IMG/VR virus record: IMGVR_UViG_3300029448_000044
Location: 1-26,172 of that record
DNA length: 26,172 nucleotides
From: a virus
Strand: one strand, 5' to 3'
Positions 2,936 through 13,264 of this stretch are shown here, in pieces. The notes under the pieces were generated by a model. The model saw nothing but the letters and a program-made list of their open reading frames with translations. It was not told the DNA's origin and did not search any database. How positions within the stretch are numbered: position 1 is the first letter of the stretch; every line of letters begins with the position of its first letter. Both the position numbers and the translations under genes were made by a program.

Positions 2936-3790
2936 AAAAAAATAGATACAATAGTAGAAGATATATATAATTTATTCGAAAAAAAGAATGAAGAACTTAC
3001 TGAAAAAGAAGTAGATAAATGTATAAATGACTTTGCTAATTCAGTTAAGGTTCATGTAAAAGACTTTTTAAAACAGTTACCACAAGATAAACCTAGATTA
3101 AGATTATCTACAATAGGTAGGCCGGACAGGCAACTATGGTATGATTTTAAAAAACCTACTAATGAACCCTTGGCACCTAGTACCAGGATTAAGTTTCTTT
3201 ATGGATATATATTAGAGGAGTTATTAATTATGCTTGCCTCTATATCTGGACATAAAGTAACTCAACAACAAAAACAAGTCGAAGTGGAAGGAGTTAAAGG
3301 ACATCAAGATTGCTTTATTGATGGTGTATTAGTAGATTGTAAAAGTGCATCAGGTAGAGGCTATACTAAATTTAAATATAATAACTTATCTAATGATGAC
3401 CCTTTTGGTTATATCTCTCAGATATCTGCTTATGCTGAAGGTAATGGCGTAGAGGAGGCAGGTTTTTTAGTTATTAATAAATCTACAGGAGAAATATGTT
3501 ATACAAAAGTACATTCATTGGAGATGATAAATGCTAAGAAAAGAATACAAAAAATTAAACAAGTTGTTAATTCAGATACACCACCGGACAAATGTTATCC
3601 AGCAGTTCCTGATGGAAAGTCTGGCAACTATAAGCTCGATACTGCTTGTATGTACTGCAATTACAAGTTTGATTGTTGGAGTGATGCTAATGATGGCAAA
3701 GGACTTCGTACTTTTAATTATTCAACCGGTAAAAGGTATTTTACTAAAGTTGAAAAAGAACCTAACGTAGAGGAAATACATGATAAATAA
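2933..3790 (+). CDS. Cas4/RecB-like PD-(D/E)XK exonuclease
   Basis: A 285-residue nuclease that probably degrades DNA or processes ends during replication and recombination. The catalytic core is visible: Asp126 (GHQDCF), D135-C-K137 (the D-x-K signature) and Q163-x3-Y167 (QISAY), as in RecB and Cas4 nucleases. Three cysteines, C239, C242 and C248, sit near the C terminus where Cas4/AddB proteins hold an iron-sulphur cluster, but the matching N-terminal Cys is not evident: the region around residues 58-72 reads LSTIGRPDRQLWYDF. A phage-specific variant without that cluster is possible. An upstream TTG at 2909 is in frame but lies inside the terminator loop, so the ATG at 2933 was chosen. It has no Shine-Dalgarno sequence. 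It overlaps the next gene by 11 bases. Confidence 0.88.
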   Translation: MKKIDTIVEDIYNLFEKKNEELTEKEVDKCINDFANSVKVHVKDFLKQLPQDKPRLRLSTIGRPDRQLWYDFKKPTNEPLAPSTRIKFLYGYILEELLIMLASISGHKVTQQQKQVEVEGVKGHQDCFIDGVLVDCKSASGRGYTKFKYNNLSNDDPFGYISQISAYAEGNGVEEAGFLVINKSTGEICYTKVHSLEMINAKKRIQKIKQVVNSDTPPDKCYPAVPDGKSGNYKLDTACMYCNYKFDCWSDANDGKGLRTFNYSTGKRYFTKVEKEPNVEEIHDK

Positions 3791-4421
3791 TCATTGGGTT
3801 GTAAAAGAAACTGGTAAACTATTTACACCAAGTGCAGATAAGTTTGGTTTTGTTTATATTATAACGAATACTAAAAATGGTAAAGCATATATAGGATGTA
3901 AACAATATACAATAGGAAGAACTAAAAAGAAAACTAAATGGGAAAACTATACCGGTTCTTCAAAATATTTAAATGAAGATATTAAAAAGATAGGTAAGAA
4001 ATATTTTACATTTGAAGTGATTGCCGAGTATAAAAATAAAAGAAGTCTAAGATATTATGAAATGTATTATCAAGTTAAACACGATGTTCTTACTACTACG
4101 TTAGAAGGAAGTGATGAACGTGCATTTTATAATGCGTATGTTGGTGGTAAGTTTTTTCCTCCTATCGAAAGTTATAGAAGAGGATATAAACATCCTCAGT
4201 TTAGAGGTAGAACAGAATTTTATTTGGATGGTAAAAGAATGGTAGTTAGCTGTTTAAGTGAATGGGCAGATGATAATGGCTATGATAGAGGAGCAATTAA
4301 TCAAATAGCTAGAACAGCACAAGATGGTTTTTTTAATCATCATAAAGGTAAGAGAAGAGCCTTTTCTTTAAATGGCCCATTAGGAAAGATTACCAATGTT
4401 AGAAGATTAGATGAAGGATAA
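3780..4421 (+). CDS. GIY-YIG endonuclease with C-terminal DNA-binding motif
   Basis: A 213-residue nuclease. The GIY-YIG core is at residues 24-95: F24-V-Y26 with I27-I28, Y37-I-G39, then a basic stretch (GRTKKKTK) and the metal-binding Glu94 in YYEMYY. The C-terminal part (about 157-193, LSEWADDNGYDRGAINQIAR followed by a basic FFNHHKGKRR segment) looks like the NUMOD/IENR-type helix-turn-helix of homing endonucleases. This arrangement is typical of free-standing homing enzymes such as phage Seg proteins. Here it overlaps the exonuclease before it and the gene after it by 11 bases each and has an AGAGGA ribosome site, so it is fully built into the operon. It may be domesticated, for example as a repair or host-DNA-degrading nuclease, or it may still be mobile. 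Confidence 0.85.
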   Translation: MINNHWVVKETGKLFTPSADKFGFVYIITNTKNGKAYIGCKQYTIGRTKKKTKWENYTGSSKYLNEDIKKIGKKYFTFEVIAEYKNKRSLRYYEMYYQVKHDVLTTTLEGSDERAFYNAYVGGKFFPPIESYRRGYKHPQFRGRTEFYLDGKRMVVSCLSEWADDNGYDRGAINQIARTAQDGFFNHHKGKRRAFSLNGPLGKITNVRRLDEG

Positions 4422-4770
4422 ACCTGATATTATACAGATAGAAAATGTCTTTTATTCTGAGCCTTATAACTCAGAGAAAAGATTATTTCTGTCTGTGATA
4501 CTTCAGGCATTACTAGATGTATCAAAGAATATAGTTACATCTAATGATAAAGTTAATAAGATGCGAGCAGAGGCCTGGTTTTTTTCTGAGGTAGGTGTTA
4601 CTTGTAAAAACTTTGAAACTGTTTGTGATATGGCCGGTGTACAACCAGATAAAGCTAGGTCTTTTGCCTACAAGGTTATACATGCAGATAATAAAAACTA
4701 TTTAAGAAAGAGAATTAGAAGCGTATTAAGAGGCGACAATGACACAGAAGAAAAAAGATTTGACATTTGA
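4411..4770 (+). CDS. conserved small phage protein of unknown function, helix-turn-helix-like
   Basis: A 119-residue protein, mostly helical. Residues 50-90 carry a pattern (RAEAWFFSE, then a Cys-rich turn, FETVCDMAGVQPDKAR) that recurs in small phage proteins near replication genes. It reads like a helix-turn-helix in which the second helix follows the Gly-Val-Gln-Pro turn. A DNA-binding or regulatory role is possible, but no family with a proven function was recognised. The C-terminal end is basic (RKRIRSVLR). It overlaps the nuclease gene before it and shares 32 bases with the next gene, so it belongs to the same translational chain. Confidence 0.75.
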   Translation: MKDKPDIIQIENVFYSEPYNSEKRLFLSVILQALLDVSKNIVTSNDKVNKMRAEAWFFSEVGVTCKNFETVCDMAGVQPDKARSFAYKVIHADNKNYLRKRIRSVLRGDNDTEEKRFDI

Positions 4771-5119
4771 AGAAAATCATGCTAAACTATATGCTGATAT
4801 GATAAATTATGAGGAGCAAGAAAACATGGGGATGATGGATGATGCAATTAAAGATACATTAAAAGAAAAAAAATTTAAAAAGACAAATCTAAAAGAGTAT
4901 GCTAGTCGTAAGAAACAAGTAGGTGGTAATCATTATAAGATGTTTAAGATTCAACCTGTAGAGTTTATTATGGGAAACAATCTTACATTTTTAGAAGGCA
5001 ATGTTATTAAATACACAACCAGAGCTAGATATAAGAATGGCATTGAAGATTATGAAAAGGCAAAACATTGTTTAGAATTAATGATTGAACATATAAAGGA
5101 GAATGAACACGATGAATAA
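4739..5119 (+). CDS. DUF3310 protein, related to T7 gp1.7 nucleotide kinase
   Basis: A 126-residue protein. Residues 1-60 are charged and look flexible. Residues 61-120 are a DUF3310 domain: QVGGNHY, then IQPVEFI, FLEGNVIKYTTR and EDYEKAKHCLELMIE, the hallmark of the family. T7 gp1.7 contains this domain and has nucleotide kinase activity on dGMP and dTMP, so a role in raising dNTP supply is likely. Location directly before ribonucleotide reductase supports that. Only the C-terminal domain is convincing, so kinase activity is inferred. AAGAGG lies six bases before the ATG. A candidate internal promoter lies near the start of the gene. Confidence 0.88.
   Translation: MTQKKKDLTFEENHAKLYADMINYEEQENMGMMDDAIKDTLKEKKFKKTNLKEYASRKKQVGGNHYKMFKIQPVEFIMGNNLTFLEGNVIKYTTRARYKNGIEDYEKAKHCLELMIEHIKENEHDE
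4760..4788 (+). promoter_or_regulatory. candidate internal promoter before ribonucleotide reductase
   Basis: TTGACA, a 17-base spacer and TAAACT (four of six matches to TATAAT), with TGC just before it as an extended -10 element. It lies inside the DUF3310 gene, about 325 bases before the reductase start. In AT-rich DNA such matches can occur by chance, so this is only a candidate. Confidence 0.3.
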
Positions 5120-7037
5120 TAATTATTTACCAACTGAATATCAAAACTTTATACATAAGTCTAGGTATTCCAGGTGGATAGAAGAAGAATCTAGAAGAGA
5201 GTCATGGATAGAAACAGTTACTAGATTCAGTACGTTTAACCAAATACATCTAAAGAAAAACTTAGGTGTAACATTAGATAGTGAAGTATGGAGAAGGATA
5301 GAAGATAGTATTATTAATCTATCTGTGATGCCTTCTATGAGAGCATTGATGACTGCAGGGCCTGCATTAGAAAGAGAAAATGTTGCCAGTTATAATTGTT
5401 CTTATCTTCCTATCGATAATCCAAAAGCGTTTGATGAGATATTATATATTTTAATGAATGGTACAGGTGTAGGTTTCTCTGTTGAAAGAGAGAATGTAAG
5501 TAAATTACCTACAATACCAGATAGAAAGTTTGAACAGACCGAAGATGTTATTTCAATTGCTGATTCTAAAGAAGGTTGGGCAAGAGGTTTTAAAGATTTA
5601 ATATCTTACTTATATACCAATAGAATACCTAAAGTAAATGTAAGTAAGATAAGACCTGCCGGTCAACGATTGAAAACATTTGGTGGTAGAGCTAGTGGTC
5701 CTCAACCTTTAGTTAATCTAATTGATTTTACTATTGATAAGTTTAAAGGTGCAAGAGGTAGAAAACTAAACTCTATGGAGTGTCATGATATTGCGTGCAA
5801 AACAGGTGAAGTAGTGGTTGTTGGTGGTGTGCGTAGGTCTGCCCTTATATCTTTGAGTAATCTCTCCGACCAAAGATTAAGAGCAGCAAAGTCTGGTGCT
5901 TGGTGGGAAACAAACCCAGAAAGAGCACTAGCAAATAACTCTGTTGTTTATACTGAACAACCAGATGCAGGTATTTTTATGAAGGAATGGCTCTCTCTTT
6001 ATGAAAGTAAGTCTGGAGAAAGAGGTATATTCAACAGAGTTTCTGCACAAGACAAGGCAAAAGAAAATGGTAGAAGAAATGCTGACCATCCTTTTGGCAC
6101 GAATCCTTGTAGTGAAATTATACTAAGACCAAATCAGTTTTGTAATCTTACAGAGGTAGTTGTAAGACCTATGGATACTGAGGCTACCTTACATGATAAG
6201 ATAGAAGTAGCTACTATATTAGGTACTATACAAGCTACCTTAACTGACTTTGGTTATCTAAGAAAGAGATGGCAAACAAATACAGAAGAGGAAAGACTAC
6301 TTGGTGTATCTCTTACAGGTATTATGGATAACTCTATTATCAATAGAAGAAGAACAAAGTTACCAGATATATTACGTAAGATGAGAAACAAAGCTGTGTT
6401 GACAAATGCCGAATGGGCAGATAAATTAGGTATACCTCAATCGACTGCAATTACTTGTGTTAAACCTTCTGGTACTGTGAGTCAATTAGTTGACAGTGCT
6501 AGTGGTATTCATGCTCGACATAACCCTTATTATATTAGAACAGTTAGAGGTGATAACAAAGACCCACTAACAGAGTTTATGAAAGAACAAGGTATACCTA
6601 ATGAACCAGATGTAATGAAGCCTGACCATACTACAGTATTTTCTTTCCCTATGAAATGTGATAGCAATGCTGTATTTAGAAATGATATGTCTGCCATTGA
6701 ACAGTTAGAGATATGGAAGTTATATGCACAACATTGGTGCGAACATAAACCTTCTGTTACTATTTCTGTTAAGGAAAAAGAATGGGTCAATGTAGGTAAC
6801 TGGTGTTGGGATAATTTTGACCATCTTTCTGGTGTATCCTTCTTACCTTTCTCAGACCATACATATCAACAGGCACCTTATCAAGATATTGATGAAGTAC
6901 AATACACTGATTTAAAATCTAAGATGCCTGAGAAAATAGACTGGGTTAGATTACAAGACTTTGAAAAGGAAGATAATACTAAAGGTTCACAAGAGTTAGC
7001 ATGTACTGCAGGCTCCTGTGAATTAGTAGATATTTAA
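5112..7037 (+). CDS. nrdJ: class II (adenosylcobalamin-dependent) ribonucleotide reductase
   Basis: It reduces ribonucleotides to deoxyribonucleotides using vitamin B12 coenzyme, feeding phage DNA synthesis. It matches the monomeric type known from Lactobacillus leichmannii (739 residues there, 641 here). The expected residues are present: C96 (SYNCS) and C344 (FCNLTE) as the reducing pair, N331-P-C333-S-E335 as the active-site Asn, thiyl Cys and Glu, and C631/C636 as the C-terminal shuttle pair. The spacings 333-344 and 631-636 equal those of C408-C419 and C731-C736 in the Lactobacillus enzyme. An ATG at 5103 is in frame, but AAAGGAG ends only one base before it, so the ATG at 5112, overlapping the previous stop, is the likelier start. 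The host must supply or import cobalamin. The gene closes the replication module. Confidence 0.95.
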   Translation: MNNNYLPTEYQNFIHKSRYSRWIEEESRRESWIETVTRFSTFNQIHLKKNLGVTLDSEVWRRIEDSIINLSVMPSMRALMTAGPALERENVASYNCSYLPIDNPKAFDEILYILMNGTGVGFSVERENVSKLPTIPDRKFEQTEDVISIADSKEGWARGFKDLISYLYTNRIPKVNVSKIRPAGQRLKTFGGRASGPQPLVNLIDFTIDKFKGARGRKLNSMECHDIACKTGEVVVVGGVRRSALISLSNLSDQRLRAAKSGAWWETNPERALANNSVVYTEQPDAGIFMKEWLSLYESKSGERGIFNRVSAQDKAKENGRRNADHPFGTNPCSEIILRPNQFCNLTEVVVRPMDTEATLHDKIEVATILGTIQATLTDFGYLRKRWQTNTEEERLLGVSLTGIMDNSIINRRRTKLPDILRKMRNKAVLTNAEWADKLGIPQSTAITCVKPSGTVSQLVDSASGIHARHNPYYIRTVRGDNKDPLTEFMKEQGIPNEPDVMKPDHTTVFSFPMKCDSNAVFRNDMSAIEQLEIWKLYAQHWCEHKPSVTISVKEKEWVNVGNWCWDNFDHLSGVSFLPFSDHTYQQAPYQDIDEVQYTDLKSKMPEKIDWVRLQDFEKEDNTKGSQELACTAGSCELVDI

Positions 7038-7134: not shown

Positions 7135-7545
7135 ATGGTAACATTTAATTTAGATAATATTACTAGACAAGCTATTGGTTTTGATAACTTGTTTAATACA
7201 ATGCTAAGTGATAACGTAGGAGATACAGGGTATCCTCCATATAACTTAATTAAGTCTGAGGAAGATACGTATCTATTACAATTTGCATTAGCTGGTTTTA
7301 AAGACAGAGAACTTGATGTTAGTGTTAAAGAAAATAAACTAACTATTAAAGGTGAGTCTGCTGATAAAGAAGAGGATGTAGAATATCTACATAAAGGTAT
7401 TGGTAAAAGATTTTTTGAAAGACAGTTTATTCTTGCCGATACGTTACATGTAGAAGGTTGCACTTTCCTTCGTGGTATATTAGAGATTAAACTCAAACAA
7501 ATTATACCTGAAGAAAAGAAACCAAGACAAATAGAAATACAATAG
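7135..7545 (+). CDS. hsp20: IbpA-like small heat shock protein (Hsp20)
   Basis: A 136-residue ATP-independent holdase chaperone that would bind unfolding proteins in the cytoplasm. The sequence follows E. coli IbpA from end to end: IGFDNLFN near residue 14, GYPPYN near residue 32, the alpha-crystallin core at about 32-125 with LAGFKDRELDV and ENKLTIKGE, the GIGKRFFERQF strand, and the C-terminal IPEEKKPRQIEIQ containing the I-x-I tail motif used for oligomer assembly. A Cys is present in the VEGCTFLRG strand. Small heat shock genes occur in several marine phages, where help with capsid or host protein folding is proposed. It has its own promoter, a strong AAAGGAG site, and a terminator directly after it, so it is a separate high-expression unit. 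Confidence 0.96.
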   Translation: MVTFNLDNITRQAIGFDNLFNTMLSDNVGDTGYPPYNLIKSEEDTYLLQFALAGFKDRELDVSVKENKLTIKGESADKEEDVEYLHKGIGKRFFERQFILADTLHVEGCTFLRGILEIKLKQIIPEEKKPRQIEIQ

Positions 7546-7551
7546 GAGCAT

Positions 7552-7586
7552 GGCAGGGATTCATTAGAGTCTCTGCCTATTTTTTT
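7552..7586 (+). terminator. intrinsic terminator/attenuator after the heat shock gene
   Basis: GGCAGGGA pairs with TCTCTGCC (eight pairs, one G-U) around a 10-base loop, followed by TA and seven T. The T run ends exactly at the ATG of the next small gene. A five-codon ORF starting at 7550 after an AGGAG lies over the hairpin; its translation could in principle affect folding, but this is speculative. Confidence 0.82.
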
Positions 7587-7730
7587 ATGGCAAGAGCAAT
7601 AGTAGGGGCAGGAAAAAGATTAAGAAGTTTTTTTAAGAAGATTACTTCTATAGGTAAGTCTAATAGAAGTAGACCAAAGAATAAACATAAACGTAGAAAT
7701 TTTAAAAAATATAAAGGACAAGGTAAATGA
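7587..7730 (+). CDS. small, highly basic protein of 47 residues
   Basis: The reading frame encodes 47 residues, of which about 20 are Lys, Arg or His, with only one or two hydrophobic patches (AIVGAG, SFF) near the start. It ends in an ATGA overlap with the next gene, which is a typical coding arrangement here and the main reason to accept it. There is no ribosome site: seven T of a terminator precede the ATG. Such a basic peptide could bind nucleic acid or membranes, but no family was recognised. It would be made from read-through past the terminator or from longer transcripts. Confidence 0.6.
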   Translation: MARAIVGAGKRLRSFFKKITSIGKSNRSRPKNKHKRRNFKKYKGQGK

Positions 7731-7975
7731 GAATAATATTAATATTAATGGTTAGTTTAATTACAATGCAGTTAAAAGCAGGTGGTTTATTTGATTCTGT
7801 CGGATACAGATATTATCATGATTTAGACAATGAGCATGATGGTTCTAAGTTTAGAAGTTATGCTACTAAAAATTTATCTAATAATGATAAATTAAAAATA
7901 GCTTATGAGAGAAAAAGAATAGGTCAAGGTTTGGAAGCCGGAACATTTTTTATAGATTACGAATGGAAGTTTTAG
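7727..7975 (+). CDS. small secreted protein with outer-membrane-strand-like C terminus
   Basis: An 82-residue protein. Residues 1-18 form a clear signal peptide: M-R, then a hydrophobic run (IILILMVSLITMQL) and a likely cleavage after KAG. The mature part has alternating polar and hydrophobic residues as in beta-hairpins (VGYRYYHDL, KIAYERKRIGQG), and ends in TFFIDYEWKF with a terminal Phe and aromatic residues at alternate places, like the signal read by the outer membrane Bam complex. It is too short for a complete barrel, so it may assemble as an oligomer, dock on a host porin or act as a decoy. Exclusion of competing phages is one idea. No Cys is present, so it is not a lipoprotein. AAAGGA and AAGG precede its ATG. 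Confidence 0.72.
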   Translation: MRIILILMVSLITMQLKAGGLFDSVGYRYYHDLDNEHDGSKFRSYATKNLSNNDKLKIAYERKRIGQGLEAGTFFIDYEWKF

Positions 7976-7976
7976 T

Positions 7977-8765
7977 ATGAATATTAGAAATGATATGGAT
8001 ACAGTCTATATAGGCTATGACCCTAGAGAACATGCAGCTTATGAGGTGTTAAAGTTCTCAATAGAAATAAGAGCTAAGAACCCTGTCAGAATTGTGCCTC
8101 TAAAAAAAGAGGCTCTAATTAAAAATGGTATGTTTAGAAGAAGGTCTAACAAGATAGGCAATCAACAGTATGATGAGATAGATGGTAGACCTTTCTCTAC
8201 AGATTTTAGTTTTACTAGATTTTTAGTACCTCATCTAAATATGTATGAAGGATTAGCCTTATATTTAGACTGTGATATGTATTGCTTTGGTGATATTACA
8301 GAGTTATTTGATATGTGTAGAGATGCTTACTATCCTGTCTGGGCAGTACACCATAAGTATAATGTTGAGAAAGGCACGAAGATGGATGGCCAAGCACAAG
8401 AACCTTATGCTATGAAGAACTGGTCTAGTCTGATGATGTTTAATTGTAATCATCATTATCTAAACAGTTTAAGTATTGATGCTATTAATACAGAAAAAGG
8501 TAGATGGTTACATACATTTAAATGGTTGCCTGACCAAGAGTCTGACATAGGTCAAATACCAGAAGAATGGAATTGGCTTGATGGTCACTCTCCAGAAGAG
8601 ATGAAACCAAAGATTGTACATTTTACAACTGGTGGTCCTTGGTTTTCTAAGTGGAAACCTAGAGGTACAACTGAAGGTAGATATGCTGTGAAATGGTGCG
8701 AAGATGCTAGGTGGTTACAGATGAAAGGTATAATACCAAGAGAAGAGGATTACTTAATAGAATGA
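7977..8765 (+). CDS. GT8-like glycosyltransferase
   Basis: A 262-residue enzyme of the GT-A fold, probably moving a sugar from a nucleotide sugar to a surface glycan. Visible features are the N-terminal strand TVYIGYDPRE (residues 9-18), the D98-C-D100 metal-binding motif within ALYLDCDMYCFGDITEL, and a C-terminal KIVHFTTGGPW (212-222) that corresponds to the conserved H-x2-G-x2-K-P-W region of GT8 enzymes, here with the Lys missing. It begins one base after the stop of the secreted protein gene and overlaps the next gene by an ATGA. A second in-frame ATG at residue 7 would only remove six residues. It likely acts with the large sugar-modifying fusion downstream. Confidence 0.86.
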   Translation: MNIRNDMDTVYIGYDPREHAAYEVLKFSIEIRAKNPVRIVPLKKEALIKNGMFRRRSNKIGNQQYDEIDGRPFSTDFSFTRFLVPHLNMYEGLALYLDCDMYCFGDITELFDMCRDAYYPVWAVHHKYNVEKGTKMDGQAQEPYAMKNWSSLMMFNCNHHYLNSLSIDAINTEKGRWLHTFKWLPDQESDIGQIPEEWNWLDGHSPEEMKPKIVHFTTGGPWFSKWKPRGTTEGRYAVKWCEDARWLQMKGIIPREEDYLIE

Positions 8766-8989
8766 GAGAATTAACTAGCACATTATATGGAGCTATAAGA
8801 GCACATTATGAAGGCGAAAGAACAAAGGCCTTATATCAACTTGACTTAGCTTTTCAAAAACCAGTGGCAATAGGAGAACATCCTAAAATAGTAGAAGATT
8901 CTATTGCCTTAGTTAAACAGTTAGCTGAAGCTGAAGAGGCTTTACAAACATTAGAAAATAATTTTGGAGCATACAATGACAGAAGTTAA
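8762..8989 (+). CDS. small conserved helical phage protein
   Basis: A 75-residue protein of two or three helices. The pattern ALYQLDLAF, then VAIGEHPKIVEDSIALVKQLAEAEEALQTLE, recurs in short proteins of many marine phages (from memory of the family pattern); no function is established. The start is the ATG that overlaps the stop of the glycosyltransferase (ATGA), rather than the in-frame GTG at 8711, which would lie well inside that gene. It also overlaps the next gene by 14 bases, so it is translated as part of the cassette. A coiled-coil adaptor role is possible, but there is no direct evidence. Confidence 0.78.
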   Translation: MRELTSTLYGAIRAHYEGERTKALYQLDLAFQKPVAIGEHPKIVEDSIALVKQLAEAEEALQTLENNFGAYNDRS

Positions 8990-11279
8990 TATTGTTACGT
9001 CATTTAACGAAAACTTACTAAAGAACACAGCAGTACATTTATTAAATTCTTTGAAAGAAAATTTAGAGGATAGTATTAATTTTACTGCATACTATCATGA
9101 TTGTAAAATAGATGCTTACTCTCTACCAGACTATACATATAAAAACTTACATGCAATTAAAGACCATGAAGATTTTATGAAGAGATATGAAGAACACGAT
9201 GGCACAGAAAATGGTAAGATACCATACAATGAAAAGTTAGATGCGTTGAAATGGTCACATAAAGTATTTGCCTTAACTGAACATGCCTTTTCATTAGCAG
9301 AAAAAAATACAGAGGCAGGTTGGTTAATATGGATTGATTCTGATTCTTATTTAAAGAAAAGATTAACAAAGAAAGATATCTTAACAATGTTAAATGATAA
9401 AGCTGACATTGTATATAATCCTGATGAACCTTTCTTTATGGCTTTTAATTTAAATAAACAACCTTCTGTAGATATTCTTGGTGATTTACGTGGTGCATTT
9501 ATTCTTGGTGAAGTAACGAAATACAGAGAATGGCATGATTATTATGTACTAGAAAGATTATTAAATATCTATCAAGCACATGGTATGAAAGTAGAACGAA
9601 CCTTTCAGATGAATGATTATTTTTATCACTTCAAAGGTACGCCAGACTTTTCAAAAGTATCTATCAGAAATGGGAAGGGAGAAAGAGTTTTTCCATTATC
9701 AGAAGAAGTGGCACAAGATATTAAACCTAATAGATATCAACAGATATCACAGATAATGCGAAAATATAAACCAAAGACTGTGATAGAAACTGGTACATGG
9801 AATGGTGGTAGGGCTATAGAAATGGCACTAACTGCTTTTGATTATACCGATACCTTTACCTATCATGGATATGATTTGTTTGAAGAAGCTACGATAGAAA
9901 CAGACCATGAAGAGTTTAATAGTAAGGCACATAACAAAATGTCTGCAGTACAAACTAGACTAGAAGAGTTTGCAGAACATATGAAGCAGAATAAAAATAA
10001 AACTTTTACATTTGAATTACATAAAGGTAATACCAGAAATACTTTAAAAGACCAAGGTGAATGGTTTGATATGGCTTTAGTAGGTGGTGGTAATAGTATT
10101 AAGACTGTTGCTCATGATTATGATTGTGTTAAGAAAACACCTATCATTATGCTTGACCATTACTTCAGGGAAGATGATGCTAAGATGGCACCTAACGATG
10201 CATACTTTGGTGTTAATAAGATATGGGATAAATTAAAAGGTAATAAAGATATTCGTAAACATGTACTACCTTCTGGTGATAAAGTAAAAGAAGGTGGCTT
10301 TACACATTTTATGATTGTATTAAATGATAAAGAACTAGAAAATATTCCTGCTGATTTACAAAGAGTACCTATTGTTGTTAATCCTAGAGATTGTGTACCT
10401 AAAGATTATATTAGAAATAATATTAAAGATAATTTAAAATTAATAAGTCAAAATAAATTTATTAATAAATGTCGAACACATAATCATCACGCTATTATTA
10501 TCTCTGGTGGACCTAATATTAACTATCAAGAATTAAAAGATACAATAAAAAAATATCCAGATGCATTAACTCTTTGTGTAAAACATGCATACCCTGGCCT
10601 TATTGAAAATGGTATTAAACCTTTTGGTTGTATTTTATTAGACCCACGTTCTATTGAAGGAACCAGTACACATGGAATTAAAAGAAAAGATTTACTAAAA
10701 GACTTAGATAATGATACAAAGTTTTTTGTAGCGTCTATGACAGACCCATCTGTTACTAATTATTTAAGAGAAAAGAAAGCAGATATCTGGGGATGGCATG
10801 CCTTCACAGAATCATTAAGAGATGATGAGGATAGAAAACAAGGTATTAAAAACAATCAAGTTAAGATTCGAGAAGATATAGGTTTACCGGCAGGTGCTAC
10901 ATTAATTACTGGTGGTACTTGTGCAGCTATGCGAGCTATTGGTATGTTACATACTATGGGTTTTAGAAACTTACATTTATTTGGTTTTGAATGTTCATTA
11001 GAAGGAGAACCTACAGAAGATATGAAAAAAGAAACTACTGGTGCTGATGATGAACCTAAAAGACCAAAGTATTTTCAAGTATCTATTGAAGATAAATCTT
11101 ACTGGACTACCGGTGAATTATTAGCAATGGCTCAAGATTGTGAGAAGACTTTTGCTGATAAGACTATGGGTATTAATTATCACTTTTATGGTGGGGATAG
11201 TTTAGTATCTCAGATATGGAAAAGTTCTATGAAGAAAGAAACCTTACCTAGTTATAAGGAGATGTTAAATGTACAGTAG
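8976..11279 (+). CDS. three-domain fusion: glycosyltransferase, methyltransferase, Maf/DUF115
   Basis: A 767-residue protein with three enzyme-like parts. Residues 1-225 resemble a GT-A glycosyltransferase, with WLIWIDSDSY at 116-125 giving the D121-S-D123 metal motif. Residues about 250-455 look like a SAM-dependent methyltransferase of the TylF/CmcI sort: VIETGTWNGG at 269-278 as the SAM loop and YHGYDLFE near 296-303. Residues about 505-745 match the DUF115/MptE-like Maf domain: AIIISGGPN at 506-514, the CVKHAYPGLIENGIKPF region, and the GATLITGGTCAAMRAIGMLHT helix-turn at 640-660 leading to LHLFGFE. Maf proteins attach nonulosonic acids to flagellin in other bacteria. The whole suggests transfer and methylation of an unusual sugar. 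A TTG at 8964 is in frame, but the ATG at 8976 has GGAG six bases before it. It overlaps the next methyltransferase gene by 11 bases. Confidence 0.8.
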   Translation: MTEVNIVTSFNENLLKNTAVHLLNSLKENLEDSINFTAYYHDCKIDAYSLPDYTYKNLHAIKDHEDFMKRYEEHDGTENGKIPYNEKLDALKWSHKVFALTEHAFSLAEKNTEAGWLIWIDSDSYLKKRLTKKDILTMLNDKADIVYNPDEPFFMAFNLNKQPSVDILGDLRGAFILGEVTKYREWHDYYVLERLLNIYQAHGMKVERTFQMNDYFYHFKGTPDFSKVSIRNGKGERVFPLSEEVAQDIKPNRYQQISQIMRKYKPKTVIETGTWNGGRAIEMALTAFDYTDTFTYHGYDLFEEATIETDHEEFNSKAHNKMSAVQTRLEEFAEHMKQNKNKTFTFELHKGNTRNTLKDQGEWFDMALVGGGNSIKTVAHDYDCVKKTPIIMLDHYFREDDAKMAPNDAYFGVNKIWDKLKGNKDIRKHVLPSGDKVKEGGFTHFMIVLNDKELENIPADLQRVPIVVNPRDCVPKDYIRNNIKDNLKLISQNKFINKCRTHNHHAIIISGGPNINYQELKDTIKKYPDALTLCVKHAYPGLIENGIKPFGCILLDPRSIEGTSTHGIKRKDLLKDLDNDTKFFVASMTDPSVTNYLREKKADIWGWHAFTESLRDDEDRKQGIKNNQVKIREDIGLPAGATLITGGTCAAMRAIGMLHTMGFRNLHLFGFECSLEGEPTEDMKKETTGADDEPKRPKYFQVSIEDKSYWTTGELLAMAQDCEKTFADKTMGINYHFYGGDSLVSQIWKSSMKKETLPSYKEMLNVQ

Positions 11280-11940
11280 AGATAACCCATCAAAAGATTA
11301 TAGTGAACTAGTAACAGAATATCAAATCTTACATACTGTAGGAAATAAAAAACAAAAAGGCCACAGTATGTTTGCTGGTATATCTTTATGTGACCATTTA
11401 GCTAGTATTACACAAATAATTAGAAAAGAAAAAGCACGTAGTTTATTAGATTACGGCTGTGGTAAAGGTTGGTTATATTCGAAAGAAAAATGTAAAAGAT
11501 TACCACTGAATAAAAAAGGTGAAATATTAAAAAACCCTTTACAAGATTTATGGCAGTTAGATTTTCATGCATTATATGACCCTGGATATGAAGAGTTTCG
11601 TACATTACCTAAAGGTAAGTATGATGCTGTTATTTGTACAGATGTTATAGAACATATTGATGAGAAGGATGCACCTTGGGTTCTTGAAGAAATATTTACA
11701 TTTGCTAAGAAGTTTGTCTATGTTACTATTGCTTGTTATGAAGCAAAGAAAACATTTGATAATGGTAGAAATGTACACGTTAATGTAAAAAAACCAGACT
11801 ACTGGAACAAATTATTAAATAACTTACATGAGAAACATTCTCATTTAAATGTGTACTATAGTTTAGATGTATTAGATGAGAACTCTCCACCAGAAGACCC
11901 TTTAAAAATTGTACAAGTAAATAAATTAGAAAGGAAATAA
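11269..11940 (+). CDS. SAM-dependent class I methyltransferase
   Basis: A 223-residue methyltransferase. The SAM-binding loop is LLDYGCGKG at 59-67, and DAVICTDVIEHI at 119-130 forms the acidic and post-II motifs. The sequence FAGISLCDHLASITQII at about 36-52 and VHVNVKKPDYW near 169-179 resemble small methyltransferases known in marine phages. The substrate cannot be read from the sequence; its place directly after the sugar-modifying fusion suggests a methylated glycan, while a nucleic-acid or small-molecule target is also possible. The AAGGAG ribosome site lies inside the previous gene, seven bases before the ATG, and the overlap with that gene suggests linked expression. Confidence 0.88.
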   Translation: MYSRDNPSKDYSELVTEYQILHTVGNKKQKGHSMFAGISLCDHLASITQIIRKEKARSLLDYGCGKGWLYSKEKCKRLPLNKKGEILKNPLQDLWQLDFHALYDPGYEEFRTLPKGKYDAVICTDVIEHIDEKDAPWVLEEIFTFAKKFVYVTIACYEAKKTFDNGRNVHVNVKKPDYWNKLLNNLHEKHSHLNVYYSLDVLDENSPPEDPLKIVQVNKLERK

Positions 11941-11941
11941 T

Positions 11942-12340
11942 ATGGCATTACTAAGTTTAATAGGCCCTGCTACTAAGTTAATAGGTAAGTTTGTAGAAGA
12001 TAAAGATGCTAAGAATAAACTTGCTCACGAGGTAGCTACAATGGCAGAGAAACATGCACAAGAATTAGCTAAAGGACAATTAGAGATTAATAAAGCAGAG
12101 GCACAATCTAGAAATATTTTTGTTGCCGGTTGGCGACCCTTCATAGGTTGGGGATGTGGTGTAGCCATGATATGGCACTTTGTTATTGCTCCATTTATTA
12201 TTTTTTTTGCAGCTTTGTTTGGGGCAACATTGCCACCACTACCAGAGTTTGATATGGGTAGTTTAATGACTGTATTAATGGGCATGCTCGGTCTTGGTGG
12301 CCTCAGAACTTTTGAAAAATATAAAAAAATTACAAAATAA
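11942..12340 (+). CDS. 3TM holin (GTA holin family)
   Basis: A 132-residue inner-membrane protein that would form the lesion that starts lysis. Its layout fits the 3TM holin family first noted in gene transfer agents: an N-terminal helix that reads as amphipathic (ALLSLIGPATKLIGKFV), a charged alpha-helical region (about 20-58), the family hallmark SRNIFVAGWRPFIGWGCG at about 56-73, then two clear hydrophobic segments (MIWHFVIAPFIIFFAALFG and MGSLMTVLMGMLGLGGL) and a Lys-rich cytoplasmic tail. AAAGGAAA precedes the ATG. The lysozyme-domain protein of this phage is on the opposite strand in the virion operon, so holin and hydrolase are not in one lysis cassette. Confidence 0.9.
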   Translation: MALLSLIGPATKLIGKFVEDKDAKNKLAHEVATMAEKHAQELAKGQLEINKAEAQSRNIFVAGWRPFIGWGCGVAMIWHFVIAPFIIFFAALFGATLPPLPEFDMGSLMTVLMGMLGLGGLRTFEKYKKITK

Positions 12341-12805: not shown

Positions 12806-13264
12806 ATGGCGTTAAATGAGCAACAAGAAAGATTTTGTCAGTCGTATGTTCTACACAGGAATGCTTCAGAAGCTGCGAGAGCTGCTGGGTATTCAAAAGA
12901 ACATGCAGCACGACAGGGGCATAGGTTACTACAAAACGAGGAAGTTATCGAAAGGATTACGGAACTCGAACAAGACCTAACCACTGATGTTGATGTTATT
13001 ACTGAGATAGAAAAACAATATGATTATGCCAGAGCAAATGGGCATACGAATAGTGCTATAAAAGCATTAGAATTATTATCTAGAGTAAGAGGTACTCAAG
13101 ATGAGAAGGAAGATAATACAGACCCTGTTAAGTTAAAACAAGACTTAGTAGACTCTGCTAAAATTATGGGTAAAGATTTTTACTTTGAAATTGGTAAAGA
13201 AGCTGGGTTCTTAAACGGACATAACAAGGTAGACAATATAGATAATAAAGAAGATAAAGAATAA
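12806..13264 (+). CDS. terS: terminase small subunit
   Basis: A 152-residue DNA-packaging recognition protein. The N-terminal helix-turn-helix is typical of the terminase_2 family: NEQQERFCQSYVLHRNASEA, AARAAGYSKEHAARQGHRLL and QNEEVIERI (residues 4-51). A helical oligomerisation part follows, then a charged Asp/Asn/Lys-rich tail. It would mark the packaging site on phage DNA and hand it to the large subunit, which is not in this window. It lies directly after the membrane protein gene with no gap, is the last plus-strand gene, and its final 54 bases are also coding on the opposite strand. Confidence 0.92.
   Translation: MALNEQQERFCQSYVLHRNASEAARAAGYSKEHAARQGHRLLQNEEVIERITELEQDLTTDVDVITEIEKQYDYARANGHTNSAIKALELLSRVRGTQDEKEDNTDPVKLKQDLVDSAKIMGKDFYFEIGKEAGFLNGHNKVDNIDNKEDKE

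Follow-up and report, generated by a model that had tools for sequence, protein, structure and literature searches.

What does an ocean phage make with a single protein that appears to join a glycosyltransferase, a methyltransferase and a Maf-like domain, and on what does it put the product? The question is raised by a 26,172-nucleotide stretch of viral DNA (positions 1 to 26,172 of the 57,043-base IMG/VR record IMGVR_UViG_3300029448_000044; hereafter the window), in which an earlier note, made from the letters alone, had described one uninterrupted 767-residue frame with three sets of motifs. The frame proved exact. It runs on the forward strand (8976–11279) from the ATG at 8976 to the stop at 11277–11279 without an internal stop, and TTTTGGAG, with its SD-like GGAG, lies immediately 5' of the start. 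The motifs are at the residues then given: D121-S-D123, VIETGTWNGG (269–278), AIIISGGPN (506–514) and GATLITGGTCAAMR (640–653). With relatives encoded at full length across hundreds of contig stretches, a chance ORF or a misassembly is ruled out, and the gene and its three domains are under purifying selection, with dN/dS values of ~0.09–0.15 in each domain among close relatives. The features of the locus are collected in Table 1.

Table 1. Coordinates, in window positions, of the three-domain gene, its domains and sites, and the neighbouring features.
Feature	Position	Strand	Basis
Terminator-like hairpin in the gap between Hsp20 and the cassette	7552..7577	+	11-pair stem, T tail
GT8-type glycosyltransferase, directly upstream	7977..8765	+	PF01501, 2.2e-5
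Small ORF overlapping both glycosyltransferase genes	8711..8989	+	phrog_1811, 3.5e-9; in most close relatives
Three-domain protein, 767 aa	8976..11279	+	ORF, SD-like GGAG, relatives in viral-contig stretches
GT-A glycosyltransferase-fold domain, residues ~1–225	8976..9650	+	GT6/ABO fold matches; stand-alone relatives
DxD motif, D121-S-D123	9336..9344	+	intact in the window; co-occurs with H218
H218, proposed third metal ligand	9627..9629	+	perfect co-occurrence with DxD
Class I methyltransferase domain, residues ~240–455	9693..10340	+	TomG/COMT/SafC folds; Methyltransf_24 in relatives; alignment with the 540-aa form
SAM-binding loop VIETGTWNGG, residues 269–278	9780..9809	+	G273, W275, N276 and G278 invariant in 42 relatives
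G370-G371-G372, in the place of the first COMT/TylF metal Asp	10083..10091	+	no variation at Gly370 or Gly372 among 42 relatives
Maf/MptE-like domain (PF01973), residues 462–767	10359..11276	+	PF01973, E=3.8e-15; domain model; blocks in common with 5mu5
Second methyltransferase (Methyltransf_23)	11269..11940	+	PF13489, 1.5e-7; phrog_24759
Holin	11942..12340	+	phrog_3427, 2.7e-32; fixed neighbour
Terminase small subunit (TerS)	12806..13264	+	phrog_51, 7e-21

By DNA polymerase and large terminase, the nearest annotated phages are the pelagiphages HTVC115P, HTVC103P, HTVC104P and HTVC027P, at just 40–48% identity. With these as its closest annotated phages and a GC content of ~0.31–0.35, the window phage likely has a SAR11 host; the three-domain gene, at 0.31, matches its surroundings. 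Upstream, at 3780–4421, the window encodes a GIY-YIG (SegE-type) endonuclease whose match to PHROG 447 (4.4e-29) carries the label 'NAD synthetase', a name that looks to be wrong for such an enzyme.

The three-domain architecture is common in uncultured marine viruses, but absent from a phage collection of 50,697 records. Viral contigs scanned with the single protein yielded 28 loci, mostly full length and 53–99% identical, and alignment-based scans found relatives encoded in at least 477 and at least 580 stretches, counts that take in near-copies and possibly both of the architectures described here. The phage collection gave no match to the window protein at E<=1e-5 and none to a relative at E<=1; as far as this collection goes, we reject the idea that the protein is already described in cultured phages, and a query with the two-domain form (see below) likewise finds relatives of the N-terminal domain only. 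A scan of a genome collection recovered only two matching contigs (L104 and L105), both with phage genes, while 289 genomes of one class gave L104 again and one 270-aa frame matching the C-terminal domain alone. Binned as Sneathiella and Flavobacteriaceae, L104 and L105 contain all or some of a set of phage genes (terminase, holin, RNR, DNA polymerase), and therefore look like misbinned phage contigs. We reject a recent capture of the gene from a host, as neither the genome scan nor the 289 genomes held a chromosomal copy and its GC content is like that of its surroundings.

The earlier note had proposed three enzyme parts, in the order glycosyltransferase, methyltransferase and Maf, within this one phage protein, and modelling bore it out in that the parts are separable folds. 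Modelled in full by AlphaFold on the 42 full-length relatives, the protein reached a pLDDT of 84 and a pTM of 0.54, a value at which the arrangement of the domains cannot be read from the model. Its PDB fold matches (E ~1e-5 to 1e-7) form three groups: the Maf structure 5mu5, COMT-type O-methyltransferases (TomG, COMT, SafC), and GT6 alpha-1,3-galactosyltransferase/ABO enzymes. PDB sequence searches with the single 767-aa protein or with the full profile gave nothing useful. On these models we are close to confident that the protein joins a GT-A domain at its N-terminus and a Maf/MptE (sialyltransferase-like) domain at its C-terminus to a class I methyltransferase between them. We found neither a single fold nor a loss of the metal and SAM pockets in all three parts.

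Only the C-terminal part is recognized by Pfam in the window protein, where PF01973 alone exceeds its threshold (residues 481–675, 56.5 bits where the cut-off is 34.6, E=3.8e-15); the same family is matched by all 42 relatives at E<=1. Modelled alone, this domain reached a pLDDT of 89 and a pTM of 0.87. The first-ranked structure was again the Magnetospirillum Maf 5mu5 (E=1.6e-7, TMq 0.54), followed by archaeal MptE (8sd5, Methanocaldococcus HPPK; E=3.3e-5), and more weakly by sialyltransferases and thiamin pyrophosphokinases. When a profile of the domain was searched against PDB sequences, the top chain was also 5mu5, weakly (E=0.04), with the SGP loop and the GFREIHLFGFD block aligned. Maf enzymes use CMP-activated acidic sugars to glycosylate flagellin and tolerate Kdo as a donor; in the canonical Maf, PF01973 is preceded by a Rossmann domain that is degenerate and weakly similar to methyltransferases (PMC11339370). 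The window protein has in common with the Maf flagellin glycosyltransferases (PF01973, MAF_flag10) its C-terminal fold, the SGP and GF..LFG.D blocks, and a Rossmann-type domain ahead of them. It differs in its added N-terminal GT-A domain, in having as its Rossmann domain a methyltransferase whose SAM loop is intact, and in being phage-encoded without a flagellin partner. Foldseek aligned 572 columns of the full model with 5mu5, but at an rmsd of 17 A. The curated Maf/PseD model NF050051 (cut-off 670 bits) had no match in the window protein, and three relatives scored 18–37 bits over ~80–110 residues.

The Maf assignment of the earlier note therefore stands as to family and best fold, whereas nonulosonic acid transfer is a reaction that the domain may, but need not, perform, because PF01973 also includes the MptE fold, which matches almost as well, and because the PseD cut-off is far off. 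We think it probable that the domain is a Maf-type CMP-sugar transferase rather than a diphosphokinase. A pterin or nucleotide diphosphokinase would suit the name of the Pfam family, taken from MptE (6-hydroxymethylpterin diphosphokinase), whose fold the domain has in common, and the ranking of the Methanocaldococcus HPPK second among the fold matches with the thiamin pyrophosphokinases after it. Yet Maf 5mu5 comes first in both fold searches and is the sole homologue in the PDB sequence search, through two matching blocks, the operon is glycan-related, and the ORFs scanned include none for a pterin pathway, all of which makes a diphosphokinase very improbable.

The middle domain has the fold and the SAM loop of COMT/TylF-type O-methyltransferases (Methyltransf_24). 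That family is matched by 28 of the 42 full-length relatives (best 8.4e-7), while relative L100 falls below its cut-off (20.4 bits against 26.3), and the window protein falls below that of TylF (13.7 bits against 23). Conserved throughout the relatives are the SAM loop ETGTWNGGRA and the acidic GYDLFE that follows it, with D300. The departure is at the metal site: the first metal-binding Asp (IDAD or IDGD in COMT-type enzymes) is Gly family-wide (VGGG or IGSG), as judged from an alignment by eye of FDMALVGGGNS with DLVFIDADK, whereas the second, D394, is retained. From these residues, SAM binding seems likely and the usual Mg2+-dependent O-methylation does not. The sugar methylation that the earlier note thought possible gains from the intact loop, but is not secured, since the first metal Asp is missing throughout; we see even odds that the domain is a working methyltransferase.

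The GT-A domain is detectable by motif and fold alone. GT6 enzymes were its best GT-A matches (E ~1e-6) in the fold search with the full model, and it has the fold and the DxD of GT6/GT8-type glycosyltransferases. It differs from these in reaching the cut-off of no Pfam glycosyltransferase family (three of the 42 relatives match Glycos_transf_2 weakly) and in the loss of its metal motif in two lineages. Stand-alone relatives of the domain occur in L134–L139, in MW202713 and in Pelagibacter phage Mosig. The metal motif that the earlier note had pointed out is intact in the window, but not in the family at large: among 93 non-redundant three-domain proteins, D121, D123 and H218 are present together in 37, lost together in 56 and mixed in none, a co-occurrence whose Fisher value ignores relatedness and is not evidence on its own. 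On the tree, the losses fall in two separate lineages, one of three members (NxN) and one of 53. These three residues appear to act as one site, as metal ligands should. This speaks for a GT-A domain that uses a metal in the window's copy, and we lean towards that copy being active.

GT-A activity is nevertheless not essential to the family, since most of the relatives found lack the metal motif. Metal-independent GT-A enzymes exist, and loss of the DxD is by itself no proof of inactivity. In the lineages without it the domain is kept at a dN/dS of ~0.07 among close pairs (0.09 with the DxD), so it appears to have another use there. Decay of the whole cassette in these lineages is ruled out both by this value and by the GT8-type neighbour, whose DxD and His are intact in 101 of 101 copies checked. 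A protein that is only partly active, with the methyltransferase and GT-A domains serving mainly as scaffold or for binding and the Maf-like domain doing the chemistry, would account for a GT-A motif lost twice under such constraint and for the Gly at the methyltransferase metal site, and the N-terminal domain of Maf is itself a degenerate Rossmann fold (PMC11339370). We find this unlikely: the window's copy retains D121, D123 and H218 as well as its SAM loop, a loop that has decayed in no relative.

The fusion, which the earlier note did not recognize as described, is new only in part. A literature search that took in few of the subscription journals found no description of the three-domain protein. 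A degenerate Rossmann domain joined to PF01973 is, however, already the normal layout of the canonical Maf, so what is new is that a GT-A domain has been added, that the SAM loop is intact, and that a metal site was lost twice. Nor is the protein wholly new to databases, since A0A6J7X5Q0, a 714-aa protein of an uncultured Caudovirales phage (UniProt/BFVD), aligns along the model (800 columns, 26% identity, TM-score 0.54–0.57). It is distant in sequence and probably has the same three-domain layout; its sole annotation is 'Methyltransferase domain containing protein', and no description of it was found.

Across diverse contigs the gene stands in a recurring order: Hsp20, GT8-type transferase, three-domain protein, methyltransferase, holin and TerS. 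Most genes from the GT8-type transferase to the holin overlap or almost abut, and the second methyltransferase starts within the three-domain gene, sharing its last 11 bases. The neighbourhood thus holds both sugar-transfer and methyl-transfer genes, in keeping with the glycan-enzyme reading of the earlier note. The phage-encoded Hsp20 (7135–7545) is also found in the distant pelagiphage HTVC115P. Terminator-like sites in the region are no more frequent than in shuffled sequence, and the hairpin at 7552–7577 is suggestive only. An 82-aa protein (7727–7975) with a signal-peptide-like start has a fixed place ahead of the GT8-type gene in many relatives; it has no family match and could act at the host envelope. 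Among the Pfam-scanned ORFs, a set that covers the small early ORFs and the structural genes in part, we found no gene for nucleotide-sugar synthesis or base modification. We reject DNA glycosylation, given the lack of a base-modification gene among the ORFs scanned and given that SAR11 is almost without restriction-modification (PMC7029224).

A shorter form of the protein was found in L105–L133, where GT-A and MptE domains are joined directly in 540-aa proteins. These have the same two domains with the DxD intact, the same GT8-type gene upstream and the holin downstream, but they lack the methyltransferase domain and the adjoining methyltransferase gene, and a different gene, of 304 aa, comes next. 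In a tree of the C-terminal domain, drawn with no outside root, the two-domain proteins form one clade opposite all of the three-domain proteins. As both are missing from this clade, the domain and the separate methyltransferase gene seem to be gained or lost as a pair, although the tree has this as a single event, which may be chance. The 304-aa protein (L105:9137–10051), relatives of which lie beside the stand-alone GT-A domains of L134–L139, has no Pfam match and is possibly another glycosyltransferase.

What, then, is made, and where does it go? Our main reading, to which we give a probability of about 0.4, is a soluble cytoplasmic enzyme of three folds that builds and caps a glycan, most likely on a virion protein. 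Its donors, the methylation, the order of steps and the acceptor are what we infer from the observed folds, motifs, operon and purifying selection. The GT-A domain would add a sugar from a nucleotide-sugar by way of a metal on D121, D123 and H218; the Maf-like domain would either add an acidic sugar, supplied in CMP-activated form, or accept onto one; and the middle domain, lacking the usual Mg2+ site, would bind SAM and methylate the glycan as it grows. The adjoining GT8-type transferase and the second methyltransferase would act as partners. The phage would draw activated sugars from its host, and Kdo is a possible donor for a phage without a sugar pathway of its own. The acceptor would most likely be a virion structural protein, and less likely the host envelope. 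We favour the virion because Maf glycosylates proteins in the cytoplasm and because the cassette is packed with the holin and TerS genes, and would put its chances slightly above even and those of the envelope slightly below.

For the glycosyltransferases of pelagiphages, the published view favours modification of the host O-chain, and it has been put forward for glycosyltransferase-rich pelagimyophages, in which GT8 is the main family (PMC7029224). The present cassette could likewise modify the O-chain or another envelope glycan in the course of infection, either to stop the adsorption of competing phages (superinfection exclusion) or to keep progeny from being trapped on debris: a GT8-type gene adjoins the three-domain gene, and the Mosig stand-alone GT-A relative sits in a cluster of glycosyltransferase, methyltransferase and sulfotransferase genes. 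However, the ORFs scanned included no membrane-anchored Gtr-type transferase, flippase or polymerase; the cassette lies tightly beside the holin and TerS genes, which are usually late; and the known Maf acceptors are proteins, modified in the cytoplasm (PMC11339370). We hold a host-surface role to be possible, if somewhat doubtful. The virion reading also has a bolder form, in which very common, uncultured marine phages use a one-polypeptide assembly line to decorate their own virion proteins with a methylated, sialic-acid-like sugar, and one domain of the line has twice turned non-metal, and probably non-catalytic, without being lost; this we consider a long shot.

The choice between virion and host surface matters, as there are few demonstrations of protein glycosylation by phages, and host-surface modification is usually the only explanation given for the sugar-transfer genes that ocean phages carry. 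The three-domain family offers a widespread and clearly bounded protein on which to test it, and its natural variation, with the DxD kept or twice lost and the methyltransferase there or missing, lets the role of each domain be asked. It would also take the Maf family beyond flagellin.

Some of the related contigs hold further features. In L016, an in-frame stop (3912–3914) splits the three-domain gene into frames of 437 and 336 aa, and is either a sequencing error or the mark of a broken gene. L031 encodes a DUF7227 protein (6135–6785; 6.8e-71) with conserved cysteines. Finally, L030 encodes a 614-aa Ser/Thr-rich repeat protein (3395–5239, with ambiguous bases near its end) that is probably a tail fibre and conceivably an acceptor of the glycan.
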